DNA of 64,000 nucleotides, taken from assembly GCF_019890725.1 (NCBI RefSeq), contig NZ_JAINZZ010000001.1, positions 186,001-250,000 of the forward strand, given 5' to 3'. The DNA is from Actinacidiphila acidipaludis. GTDB taxonomy: Bacteria > Actinomycetota > Actinomycetes > Streptomycetales > Streptomycetaceae. The notes under the pieces were generated by a model. The model was not told the origin of the DNA. It saw only the letters and a list, made by a program, of their open reading frames with translations, and searched no databases. Both the position numbers and the translations under genes were made by a program. Positions 960 to 27,599 of this stretch are shown here, piece after piece (within the stretch, counting starts at the first letter, position 1; each line of letters begins with the position of its first letter).

Positions 960-1450
960 TCAGAGCCCGGCTTGCGAACGCGGCGCCCCCGCCGCCGGGC
1001 TCAGCAGAACCAGGGTGTCCCCCGGTTCGGCCTGCGGCACGGCTCCTTCCGTGACCGGTTCCAGCCGGTGTCCGCGGCGCACCACGAAGAGCAGGTCGCT
1101 GCCGGTGGGGAGGGGCGCGCCGGCGGGGACGGCCGTGATGACGCCGCCGTCCTCGTGCTTGCGGGCGAGGTCGGAGCCCGTCAGGTGCGTCCCGAAGAGG
1201 ATCTCCCCGCCGAGGTAGGGGGCGACGACGCCGTGGCTGCCGATCGCCGCGCCGACGCGGTGGACCGGGCCCTCGACCCCGCCGCGCAGCAGCGCCGCCG
1301 CCAGCGCGTTGAAGTCGTCCTCACCGGTGAGCAGGTACAAGGCGGTGATGCCTTCCAGCTCGGCCCCGGCGCCCGTCGCGTCGGCCAGCATCTCTCCGGG
1401 CGCGAGCTCGATGCCCGCCCGCTGGATGAGCCGCCGTTGCCGGTCGAGCC
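960..1450 (-). pseudogene. C-terminal remnant of a cation/proton antiporter
   Basis: About 162 codons from LDRQRRLIQRAGIEL to the stop encode the cytoplasmic TrkA-like tail of a CPA1-type (NhaP-like) sodium/proton antiporter. Recognisable parts are the nucleotide-binding TrkA_N remainder (DATGAGAELEGITALYLLT, then FNALAAALL) and a TrkA_C-like end (GVITAVPAGAP, PGDTLVLLSPAAG). The membrane domain and start codon are absent. Upstream sequence switches abruptly, in another frame, to NDH-2 at about 1450, so this is the 3' end of a gene left by a deletion. It cannot be a functional antiporter. An out-of-frame reading through the junction would add unrelated residues. Confidence 0.8.
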
Positions 1451-2281
1451 CGGCGCCTCGACGCCCGCCGTCCACAGCACGGTGCGCGCGGCGTACCGCG
1501 TGGTCGTGCCCTGCCGGTCCTCGACCGTCAGACCGTCGGCGTCGAGGTCGGTGACCCTCGTGCCGAGATGGAGTTCCACGCCGAGGTCGGCCAGGGTGCG
1601 CGCGGCACGCCCGGCCAGCGGTTCACCGAAGGGCCCGAGCACCTTGTCGGATCCCTCGAAGAGCAGCACCCGGGCCTGGAGCGGGTCGATCGTGCGGAAC
1701 TCGCGGTCGAGGGTGTGCCCGGCGATCTCCCGGATCTGGCCGGCCAGCTCCACGCCGGTCGGGCCGCCGCCGACGAGCGCGAAGGTGAGCCACTGGCGTC
1801 GTTCTTCCGCGTCGGCGGCGGACTCGGCCATCTCGAACGCCCGGTAGAGCCGGCGGCGGATCTCCAGGGCGTCGGCCAGGGTCTTCATGCCCGGGGCGTG
1901 GGCCGCGAACTCGTCGTGCCCGAAGTAGGACTGCCGCATGCCGACCGCGACGATGAGGTCGTCGTACGGCACGGCGACACTGCCGCCGGCCGGCCGCCGG
2001 GTGTGGACGAGGCGGGCCTTCACATCCACGTCGGTGGCGTCGGCGAGCAGGCAGCGCACGTTCGTGTGGCGGCGCAGCACCGCGCGCAGGGGCTGCGCGA
2101 TCTGGCCCTCGGACAGGATCCCGGCCGCGCACTGGTAGAGCAGCGGCTGGAAGAGGTGGTGAGCCCGGTGGTCGAGCAGCGTCACCGCGACCGGGGCCCG
2201 GCGCAGCGCACGGGCGGCGAACAGCCCCGCGAAACCGCCCCCGACGATCACCACCCGGCGGGGCGTCACATGGTCTTCCAC
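1451..2281 (-). pseudogene. ndh: Truncated type II NADH dehydrogenase (NDH-2)
   Basis: The first ~277 codons match NDH-2, a membrane-associated FAD enzyme passing electrons from NADH to quinone. The N-terminal FAD dinucleotide motif (VVIVGGGFAGLFAARAL), the HHLFQPLLYQ segment, the second Rossmann motif (LVGGGPTGVELAGQI) and RTVLWTAGVEAP are all present. The gene then breaks at about 1451: the C-terminal FAD-binding end (GDL...) and amphipathic membrane helix are missing. Translation runs out of frame through antiporter sequence to a stop at 1181. The ATG at 2281 lies 6 bases after the stop of the upstream SDR gene, suggesting an original operon. Loss of the C-terminal FAD and quinone region makes activity unlikely. 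Confidence 0.8.
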
Positions 2282-2287
2282 CGGGGC

Positions 2288-3127
2288 TCAGCCGCCGGTG
2301 GCGAAGCCGGGGAAGAGCGTCATCCCGCCGTCGACGTACAGGGTCGCGCCGACCACGTAGTCCATCAGGTCCGAGGCCATGGCGACGACGGCGTCGGCGA
2401 TGTCCTCGGGGTCCCCCACCCGCTGGTACGGGATGAGTTTGAGCAGCTCGGCCTCGGCCTCCGGCGTCTCCCAGGCGTCCCGGTTGATGGGGGTGCGGAT
2501 GGCGCCGGGGCCGATGGCGTTGACACGGATGTGGTGGGGTGCGAGTTCCTGGGCCAGAGTCTGCATCATCATGCCGACGCCGCCCTTGGAGGAGGCGTAG
2601 TTGACGTGGCCGGTCCACGGGACGATCTGGTGGACCGAGCTCATGCAGATGATCTTCCCGGCCGCCCGGGACACCTCGGGGACGATGCCGCGGCGCATGA
2701 ACTCCTTCGCCGCCTCACGGGCGCACAGGAACTGCCCGGTGAGGTTGACGTCGATGACCTTCTGCCACTGGGCGAGCGTCATGTCGACCAGCGAGGAGTC
2801 CCGTTGGAGGCCCGCGTTAGCCACCATGATGTCGATGGTGCCGAGCTCCTTCACCATCCGGGCGACCATCTCGACGACCTGGCCCTCGTTCGACACGTCG
2901 GCCTCGTGGGCGTAGGAACGGACCCCGAACGCCTTGATCTGCTCGACGACCTTCTCGGCCTCGTCCGGACCGACGACGTAGTTGACGACGACATCGGCGC
3001 CGGCCCTGCCCAGGGCGATGGCCGTCGCCTTGCCGATACCCGAGTTCGCGCCGGTCACCAGGGCCTTCTGACCTCGCAGAAGCTGCGCGTTCACCGGGGT
3101 GCCGCTCTTCTCAGCACGTTCCGCCAC
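2288..3127 (-). CDS. Short-chain dehydrogenase, glucose-1-dehydrogenase-like
   Basis: A 279-residue classical SDR. Visible are the cofactor motif TGANSGIGKAT near residue 25, ANAG, the catalytic serine in CMSSVHQ, and YASSK supplying the Tyr/Lys pair. VDGGMTLFPGF near the C-terminus is usual for the glucose 1-dehydrogenase/3-oxoacyl reductase branch. It should oxidise or reduce an alcohol/ketone with NAD(P); the substrate is not predictable. The GTG start at 3127 follows GAGGAAGG at about 8 bases. It is followed after 6 bases by the broken NDH-2 and faces a second SDR across a divergent intergenic region. Confidence 0.85.
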   Translation of the reverse strand: MAERAEKSGTPVNAQLLRGQKALVTGANSGIGKATAIALGRAGADVVVNYVVGPDEAEKVVEQIKAFGVRSYAHEADVSNEGQVVEMVARMVKELGTIDIMVANAGLQRDSSLVDMTLAQWQKVIDVNLTGQFLCAREAAKEFMRRGIVPEVSRAAGKIICMSSVHQIVPWTGHVNYASSKGGVGMMMQTLAQELAPHHIRVNAIGPGAIRTPINRDAWETPEAEAELLKLIPYQRVGDPEDIADAVVAMASDLMDYVVGATLYVDGGMTLFPGFATGG

Positions 3128-12795: not shown

Positions 12796-13475
12796 CCCTT
12801 CCCCTGACCCTGCCCGCGGCACCGGCGTGGGCCGGCGCCGACCTCTACGCCGCCGCGTTGCGGAGCGGACGCGGCCCGCTGTATCTGGCCTGCCCCGACG
12901 GCCGCATGCTTCCGCTGCACGTCGAACGATGGTGCGCCCCGCCGGACGCGGCAGACCGCACGGTGCTGGCCGCGTGCCGCGGTCCCGTCCTCGACATCGG
13001 ATGCGGACCGGGCCGGATGGTCACGGCGCTGGCGGCCCACGGCACGACGGCCCTCGGCATCGACGTCAACGCCGAGGCCGTACGGCGCGTTCTCGCCGTC
13101 GGCGGACCGGCGCTCCTCCGGTCCGTCTTCGACCCGCTGCCGCGTGAAGGCCACTGGAACACCGCGCTGCTGCTGGACGGCAACCTCGGCATCGGCGGCG
13201 ACCCCGGTGCCCTGCTCGACCGGATCCAGCACCTGTTGCGCCCCGGCGGGACGCTCATCGCCGAGACCGCGCCCGGCCGTCCGGACCGCGACGAGCGCCT
13301 GCGTGTCCGCCTGCACGACGGCGAACGGGCCCACGGCGGGCCGTTCCCCTGGGCGCTCCTGGGCGCCCACGCGCTGGCCGGCCGCGCCGCGGCGCACGGA
13401 TGGAGCCCCGCGGGGGCCTGGACCGTGGGCGGCCGCGGTTTCACCGCCCTCCGGGCCGCCGCCCCTGGTGGCTGA
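12792..13475 (+). CDS. Class I SAM-dependent methyltransferase
   Basis: 227 residues from the GTG that overlaps the upstream stop (GTGA). Motif I VLDIGCGPGRMVTAL (residues ~67-81), LGIDVNAEAV as motif post-I, and ALLLDGNLGIGGDP as motif II are clear, followed by LLRPGGTLIAET. It should methylate a small molecule or glycolipid intermediate made by the operon; no specific substrate motif is seen. This is the last gene of the operon; its stop is 18 bases from the convergent stop of the next gene, with no obvious hairpin. Confidence 0.85.
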   Translation: MTLPLTLPAAPAWAGADLYAAALRSGRGPLYLACPDGRMLPLHVERWCAPPDAADRTVLAACRGPVLDIGCGPGRMVTALAAHGTTALGIDVNAEAVRRVLAVGGPALLRSVFDPLPREGHWNTALLLDGNLGIGGDPGALLDRIQHLLRPGGTLIAETAPGRPDRDERLRVRLHDGERAHGGPFPWALLGAHALAGRAAAHGWSPAGAWTVGGRGFTALRAAAPGG

Positions 13476-25032: not shown

Positions 25033-27599
25033 CGGACGAACCCGACGCTCAGAGGGACGACGCGGTGCACCTCGGTGTCGAACCGCTGCGCGGCCCGCGC
25101 CTGTTCCGGGGAGACCTGGTCGTAGGTGGTGGTGCGCTGCCGGGCGGGGCGACCAGCGGCGGCCGCGAGTTCCGTGATGCCGGCGATCGTCTTCATCGAT
25201 CCGTTGGCCGAGCCGGCCATGCGGCTGATGGTCTCCTCCATCAGGGTGCCGCCGAGGTCGTTGGCCCCGCCGCGGAGCAGCTCGACGCACTGCTCGGGCG
25301 TGAGCTTCACCCAGGAGCACTCGATGTTGTCGATGTGGCCGTGCATGAGCAGCCGCGCCAGGGCGTGAACGACGCGGTTGTCGCGGTGCGACGGGCCGGG
25401 GCGTGCGATGCCCGCCAGGTAGAGGGGCGCGTTCTGGTGGACGAACGGGAGCGGAACGAACTCGGTGAAGCCACCGGTCTCCTGCTGCAGGCGGACCAGT
25501 GTCCGCATGTGCGCGACCCAGTGGCGCGGCTCGTCGACATGGCCGTACATCATCGTCGCGGTCGACCGGATACCGAGTTCGTGGGCCGTCCGGATGACGC
25601 GGACCCACTCCCCCGCCGGGAGCTTGCCCTTGGTGAGCACCCATCGCACCTCGTCGTCGAGGATCTCGGCGGCCGTGCCCGGGACCGAGTCGAGGCCGGC
25701 CGACCGTGCCTCGCGCAGCCATTCGGCGACGGAGATGCCCATGCGGGAGGCACCGCTGATGATCTCCATCGGCGAGAAGGCGTGCAGGTGGATGCCGGGG
25801 CGGCGTCGTTTCACCTCGCGGGCCAGGTCGAGGTGGATGGTGCTGGGCAGCGCCGGGTCGATGCCGCCCTGCATGCAGATCTCGGTGGCACCCACGGCCC
25901 ACGCCTGCTCGACGCGCTCACCGACCTCGTCGAGGGACAGGCGATAGGCGTCGGCGTCGGTGGCGCGCTGGGCGAAGGCACAGAACCGGCAGCCGACATA
26001 GCAGACGTTGCTGAAGTTGACGTTCCTGTTGACGACGTAGGTGACGGCGTCACCGACGGTCGAGCGGCGGACCTGATCGGCCAGCAGGCACAGTGCGTCG
26101 AGGTCGGGCCCGTCGGCGTGCACCAGCGCCAGCGCCTGGGGGTCGGTGAGGGCCGCCGGGTCGCGCTCGGCGGCTCGCAGGGCGGCGGCGACGTCGGAGT
26201 TCAGCCGCTGCGGGGCGCCGGCCCCGGTCTGCGCCGTCCTGCCGCTGAGCTGTTCCGCCAGTACCCGCCAGTCCCCGAAGGCGTGGTCGAAGTCGCCGCG
26301 GGCGGTGGTCCGCCGGCCCTCCTGGTCGATGGCCGTGTGGAGGTCCGTGCGGCCGGAGGAGACGGCTTCGGCCGTCTCCTGCCAGGGCCGGCCGGCCGGT
26401 GTGACGTCGGCGGCGAGGCCGGTGGCCGGATCGGCGAGGGCCAGCAGGTGCGGTCGCAGCCGGGCGTCCGCCCACGGGCCGCCCGCACGCAGGTACTCCG
26501 GCTGCACCGCCAGCCGCTCACGGAGTTCGAACCCGGCCTCGGCGGTCAGATCCTTCAGCCGCTCCAGTTGCGGCCACGGCCGCTCGGGGTTCACGTGGTC
26601 GGGTGTGAGGGGCGAGACGCCGCCCCAGTCGTCGACGCCGGCGGCGAGCAGCAGGCGCAGTTCCTCGGGACGCGAGAGGTTGGGCGGGGCCTGGACCCGC
26701 ATCCGCGGGCCGAGGAGGATCCGCGCCACGGCGATCACGGCCAGGTACTCGGCCAGTCCGGCGTCCGGTGCGGCGCGCATCGCCGTGCCGGACTTGGCGC
26801 GGAAGTTCTGGACGATCACCTCCTGGACGGCGCCGTACTGGCGGGCGATCCGGCGGATCTCCAGGAGGGAGTCGACACGGTCCTCGGGGGTCTCGCCGAT
26901 GCCGACGAGGATCCCGGTGGTGAAGGGGATGCCGGTCCGTGAGGCGTCCTCGATGGTGCGAAGCCGCACCGCGGGCTCCTTGTCCGGCGACCCGTGGTGG
27001 CAGCCGCCGGGCTCGGCCCACAGCGACCGCGCGGTGGTCTCGAGCATCAGTCCCATCGATCCCGCCACGGGCTTGAGCTTCTGCAGTTCCGCCCACGTCA
27101 TCACACCGGGGTTGAGGTGCGGGATCAGGCCGGTCTCCTCCAGGACGAGAATCGCCATGGCGCGGACGTAGGACAGGGTGTCCTCGTAACCGCGGGCGTC
27201 CAGCCAGGAGCGTGCCGCCTTCCACCGGGCCTCGGGGCGGTCGCCGAGGGTGAACAGGGCTTCCTTGCAGCCCAGCCGGGCGCCCTCGCGGGCGATGTCG
27301 AGCACCTTCTCCGGGGGAAGGTACGCCTCTTCGACCCGGCCGGGCGTGGTGGCGAACGTGCAGTAGTGGCATCGGTCCCGGCACAGCCGGGTGAGCGGCA
27401 CGAAGACCTTCCTGCTGTAGGTCACGGTGCCGGGCCGTCCGGCGTCCGCAAGGCCTGCCGAGCGGATGGACGCCGCGACCTCGCAGAGCCGGGTGAGGTC
27501 GTCGCCGCGGGCCCCGAGCAGTGCGGTGGCCTCGGCGCGGTCGATGTTCTTGCCAGCCTGTGCCCGCGCCAGGGCGCGGCGTACGGATGCGGTGCTCAC
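25029..27599 (-). CDS. fbiC: FO synthase, two radical SAM domains (FbiC)
   Basis: An 856-residue bifunctional CofG-CofH fusion, the usual actinobacterial length. The first radical SAM site is CRDRCHYC (C73, C77, C80) and the second is CYVGCRFC (C533, C537, C540). It makes the deazaflavin FO from tyrosine and the ribityl-pyrimidine 5-amino-6-ribitylaminouracil using SAM radicals in the cytoplasm. ECMQGG-type ([10 protein letters not shown]) and MMYGHVDEP motifs confirm the CofH half. GTG 27599 ([10 protein letters not shown]) is taken; upstream frame is non-coding in style. It lies between an acyl-CoA dehydrogenase and cofC in one operon. Streptomyces normally have fbiC elsewhere; whether this is a second copy cannot be seen here. 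Confidence 0.92.

Follow-up and report, generated by a model that had tools for sequence, protein, structure and literature searches.

A junction between an NDH-2 gene and the tail of a cation/proton antiporter as the very probable scar of one deletion in a soil bacterium

The window analysed here, a 64,000-nucleotide stretch of genome G000 (its own genome; contig C1, positions 186001-250000), raises the question of how a type-2 NADH dehydrogenase (NDH-2) gene comes to run directly into the C-terminal coding sequence of a cation/proton antiporter in another reading frame. We conclude with high confidence that the junction is the scar of one deletion in a soil bacterium. The features of the locus are as follows.

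2288-3127, minus strand: SDR-family dehydrogenase, the intact upstream neighbour and synteny anchor (adh_short_C2, E 3.6e-63)
1451-2281, minus strand: 5' part of an NDH-2-like FAD oxidoreductase gene, codons 1-277 of about 446, with the 3' end deleted
1451-1454, minus strand: junction microhomology GCCG, 3-4 bp
1181-1450, minus strand: NDH-2 frame continuing out of frame through antiporter DNA, with 89 nonsense residues and then a stop (ORF 1181-2281)
960-1450, minus strand: 3' part of the antiporter from about codon 431 of 587, comprising most of the RCK (TrkA-like) region

A preliminary description had placed a switch from NDH-2 to the antiporter C-terminus, in a different frame, at about position 1450, with both parts on the minus strand, and the DNA boundary and codon alignments bear this out (2281-1451, then 1450-960). 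The NDH-2 frame is opened by a GTG at 2281 and continues through ...VLWTAGVEAP to codon 277, ending at 1451. Across the 61 genomes compared, the DNA alignment of the best relatives ends at query base 849-851, corresponding to window positions 1450-1452, and on the opposite side the best DNA match is genome G008, which aligns over query 847-1298. From 1450 downwards, the antiporter C-terminus can be aligned codon by codon with the frame of ORF 1475..960, and the residues of this ORF ahead of the junction are NDH-2 DNA read out of frame. The exact 29-base junction was found in four of 143 loci searched, all four from G000. The downstream neighbour of the scar is an ankyrin-repeat gene, and a scan for sigma-70 promoters and terminators returned no match.

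Over codons 1-276, the NDH-2 remnant closely matches the intact NDH-2-like Pyr_redox_2 flavoprotein of Actinacidiphila cocklensis (94% amino acid identity); unlike that protein, the window copy is without the last ~169 of 446 codons and carries out-of-frame sequence instead. The Pyr_redox_2 match on the remnant (E 1.2e-34) ends at profile position 238 of 291, while the match in the intact A. cocklensis protein extends to position 291. The remnant is also 92% identical to the Streptomyces mangrovisoli protein, whose DNA identity of 89.5% is the highest of nine compared. VVGD, AMQTG and the C-terminal anchor lie at residues 313, 330 and 386 of intact NDH-2, all past the break at 277; we take them to be the second FAD motif, the quinone-side motif and the membrane anchor, respectively. 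The window copy encodes none of these three and is not a complete flavoprotein with two dinucleotide-binding domains.

The antiporter part is similarly truncated. Its tail is 56-71% identical to the intact Na+/H+ exchanger-family (PF00999) antiporters of S. mangrovisoli, S. canus and G033, including 57% to residues 430-586 of the G033 protein; against S. mangrovisoli and the damaged G008 copy the identity is 70-71%, the 71% of S. mangrovisoli being the highest among 20 loci compared. Unlike the intact antiporters, in which PF00999 spans residues 16-391, the window is without codons 1 to about 430, which encode every membrane helix and the beginning of the RCK region; it retains only residues of about 431-587, with neither the PF00999 transmembrane domain nor any membrane helix. 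The tail gave no Pfam match at E 0.001, no NCBIfam match and no match in a PDB sequence search. An AlphaFold2 model of the intact tail (mean pLDDT 67.9) has TrkA as its top Foldseek match (E 2.1e-5, TM 0.39 by query), and VIA aligns 115 residues of it to an NAD(P)-binding domain at rmsd 4.3 (Z up to 10.9) and gives Z of 9-11 for many KtrA/TrkA/KefC chains, although the second half of the tail is poorly covered. The intact antiporter tail is thus predicted by the model to have an RCK fold, and the TrkA-like label that it had been given is right by fold, although Pfam gives the tail no match at that threshold. Residue 431 of the intact protein, where the break falls, is residue 31 of the model, so that the first RCK strand-helix-strand is gone from the window remnant, which does not contain a complete RCK/TrkA domain. 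Given their missing parts, the NDH-2 and antiporter remnants are both almost certainly dead, as judged from sequence.

To place the junction in context, we used 80 named NDH-2 loci from one scan of the genome collection, of which L055-L083 are the best-matching 29. NDH-2 continues past codon 277 in 79 of the 80, the exception, L122, stopping at a contig end. Among the best-matching 29, an SDR gene directly precedes NDH-2 in 26, cydA and cydB follow it in 25, and the antiporter comes directly after cydB in four (L074, L076, L080 and L083) and directly after NDH-2, with no cyd genes, in one (L081). Genomes G023 (the same genome as L080) and G033 have the single-strand order SDR - NDH-2 - cydA - cydB - antiporter, with the cyd subunits matching PF01654 and PF02322. 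In S. mangrovisoli, three opposite-strand genes separate the series SDR - NDH-2 - cydA - cydB from the antiporter, and L056, L058, L062 and L070 have a full-length, same-strand antiporter 6-7 kb further down, with opposite-strand GMC oxidoreductase, cyclase-like and GH15 genes ahead of it. Within the genus, NDH-2 was found at E <= 1e-100 in 8 of 35 genomes, the window's own included, and reaches at least codon 426 in all seven others; an antiporter match at E <= 1e-15 was also found in 8 of 35, six being full-length and two solely damaged (G000 and G008). Among the seven NDH-2 matches outside G000, that in G020 (G020:C1:7782450-7783763) contains one in-frame TAG.

Relatives had been expected to carry both genes intact, and same-strand, collinear, intact clusters are indeed what they contain; the window's junction as a normal gene, which would have argued against a deletion, is absent from the named loci and genus members just described. 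Because both genes are intact, collinear and on one strand in relatives, a single deletion suffices to explain the junction, and the proposed deletion of the NDH-2 end and the antiporter membrane part is supported by this collinearity and by the fact that the rest of the genome does not contain the missing pieces. That account is incomplete, as the deleted stretch very probably also contained cydA and cydB. The closest sequences to both halves share one layout, that of S. mangrovisoli, and in this best-fitting layout three further genes possibly lay within the deleted stretch too. Between breakpoints, the distance is about 10.1 kb in the S. mangrovisoli layout (by arithmetic), 10,504 bp in L070, 4,373-4,455 bp in the cydB-antiporter layout of the S. 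canus type (five loci measured) and 1,886 bp in the cyd-less L081; in L147 the antiporter breakpoint was placed by tblastn alignment, while L148, whose alignment row was on the wrong strand, was left out. Taken together, the best fit of the halves and these distances make the loss of cydAB very probable and leave the exact size, as estimated from the layouts, uncertain (about 10.1 kb, 4.4 kb or 1.9 kb). Since the antiporter of A. cocklensis, the closest relative by NDH-2 protein, sits on a different contig, the ancestral layout is one that we infer.

The junction could instead have arisen in two or more steps, with a smaller deletion following earlier damage to the antiporter or earlier loss of cydAB, and this is the most substantial alternative, though an unlikely one. 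The antiporter of G008 has an in-frame internal deletion, such that loss of the membrane part might have come first, and this genome has no NDH-2 or cydAB between the SDR gene and the antiporter; from an arrangement such as that of L081, where NDH-2 adjoins the antiporter, a deletion of only 1,886 bp would be needed. Against this, L081 is distant (52% identity to the tail), the cydA-cydB pair follows NDH-2 in the large majority of best-matching loci, and a single event is simpler.

The junction sequence suggests how a single deletion may have occurred. The NDH-2 side reads GAG GC(G/A) CCG and the antiporter side TGG GCC GGG in S. mangrovisoli and G008; codon 276 is GCA in A. cocklensis and S. 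mangrovisoli, and the overlap is 3 bp if this codon is ancestral and GCCG otherwise. Microhomology of at least 4 bp occurred in 3.1% of 200,000 simulated random joins of both genes in S. canus. Three matches to Ku genes over the cut-off are present in G000, and a short microhomology with Ku present is consistent with end-joining but no proof of it. From the 3-4 bp of microhomology and the three Ku genes, the deletion likely arose by end-joining. An ancestor with the order SDR - NDH-2 - cydA - cydB - antiporter, possibly with three opposite-strand genes just ahead of the antiporter, would have suffered a double-strand break. Repair by end-joining at the microhomology would have cost it the 3' end of NDH-2, the membrane domain of the antiporter and, very probably, the cytochrome bd oxidase genes. 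The outcome would be an out-of-frame chimera in which, judging from the missing parts, neither remnant could do its parent's job. Microhomology-type deletion scars and fusion pseudogenes occur in bacteria and likewise join two same-strand genes abruptly where these have a few bases in common; compared with them there is nothing special here, except the probable added loss of a cytochrome bd operon segment. The case is a well-supported yet ordinary gene-loss scar. For Streptomyces, one report describes large deletions and discusses NHEJ genes in genome evolution (PMC5124664).

An assembly error, in which the ends were wrongly joined and the strain really has the intact cluster, is highly improbable, even though the genome is a draft in 170 contigs. 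The junction is internal to a contig of 384 kb, its sides have just 3-4 bp in common, and no exact match between the two window halves exceeds 11 bp, a length too short for typical short-read assembly collapse. Moreover, the assembly is rated 99.96% complete, and elsewhere in G000 there is no copy of the lost NDH-2 end (next NDH-2-like match 33% identical), of the lost antiporter membrane domain (next match 32%) or of the lost cydA (paralogs at most 50%); the absence of these pieces makes a mis-join unlikely.

The one-deletion scar is probably recent, as gauged by a polarised substitution test. Window and sister branches carry 12 non-synonymous/27 synonymous versus 9/37 substitutions in NDH-2 (p 0.31), 20/21 versus 18/16 in the tail (p 0.82) and 16/36 versus 19/23 in the intact SDR gene (p 0.20), so that there is no significant non-synonymous excess on the window branch in NDH-2 or the tail, and unchanged ratios of this kind give no sign that the remnants have begun decaying. 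The scar looks young because this excess of amino acid changes is absent.

Damage to this antiporter is recurrent in the genus, given the further damaged copies in G008 and G031. The G008 gene (L139:1815-2699) has lost about 298 codons in frame, leaving 295 amino acids with most helices lost, and that of G031 (L029:7217-7558, minus strand) is a 113-residue in-frame remnant comprising the start, an unrelated middle and the last ~50 residues. In both, the antiporter frame and a downstream ClC-type channel gene have four bases in common, at the stop of the former and the start of the latter (G031 by eye); the sole ClC-type match in G000 is 41% identical and on another contig. That such leftover tails are retained because they couple translation or work as free RCK regulators, the window copy being the most degraded case, is very doubtful. 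Least tenable of all is the idea that the remnant is a fusion or free-standing RCK tail under selection, still made and doing something: the tail frame is open and stop-free, its dN/dS to G008 (0.38) is like that between intact relatives, and G008 and G031 also retain in-frame tails without the membrane domain, but long open frames arise by chance in high-GC DNA, a young scar would appear identical, the tail is in a different frame from NDH-2 and lacks the first unit of the RCK fold, and its possible starts are only GTG 1475, in out-of-frame NDH-2 DNA with no ribosome site nearby (by eye), or an internal ATG at about 1393.

The scar is a clean and apparently recent case of an actinomycete losing, besides the antiporter, an accessory branch of respiration made up of NDH-2 and probably cytochrome bd oxidase, while retaining oxidoreductase paralogs. 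In the literature matches listed for cytochrome bd and NDH-2, the listing and abstract openings do not contain the genus name Actinacidiphila. Five NDH-2-like paralogs are kept in G000, as are cydA-like paralogs at C67 (50%) and C78 (28-36%), each followed by a cydB-like gene and thus forming two other cydAB sets (cydB was examined within the C67 and C78 stretches); these paralogs probably explain why the loss was tolerated. Annotation could mistake the remnants for working genes, one for an FAD-dependent oxidoreductase and the other for a short hypothetical protein; both should be labelled pseudogenes.

The C67 pair (L135:12308-14997) is a divergent cydAB, its cydA and cydB being 47% and 46% identical to the lost family, and the C78 pair (L136) lies beside a 1185-aa ORF. 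Two apparent TGA stops in the C67 cydA paralog were rejected: its ORF, 561 aa long, stops at locus base 13312, which the alignment overshoots by 24 bases. Elsewhere in the window, at 26130-26223, ARAGORN calls a tRNA-Ala (cgc) that, at 94 bases, is unusually long and may be a false call.
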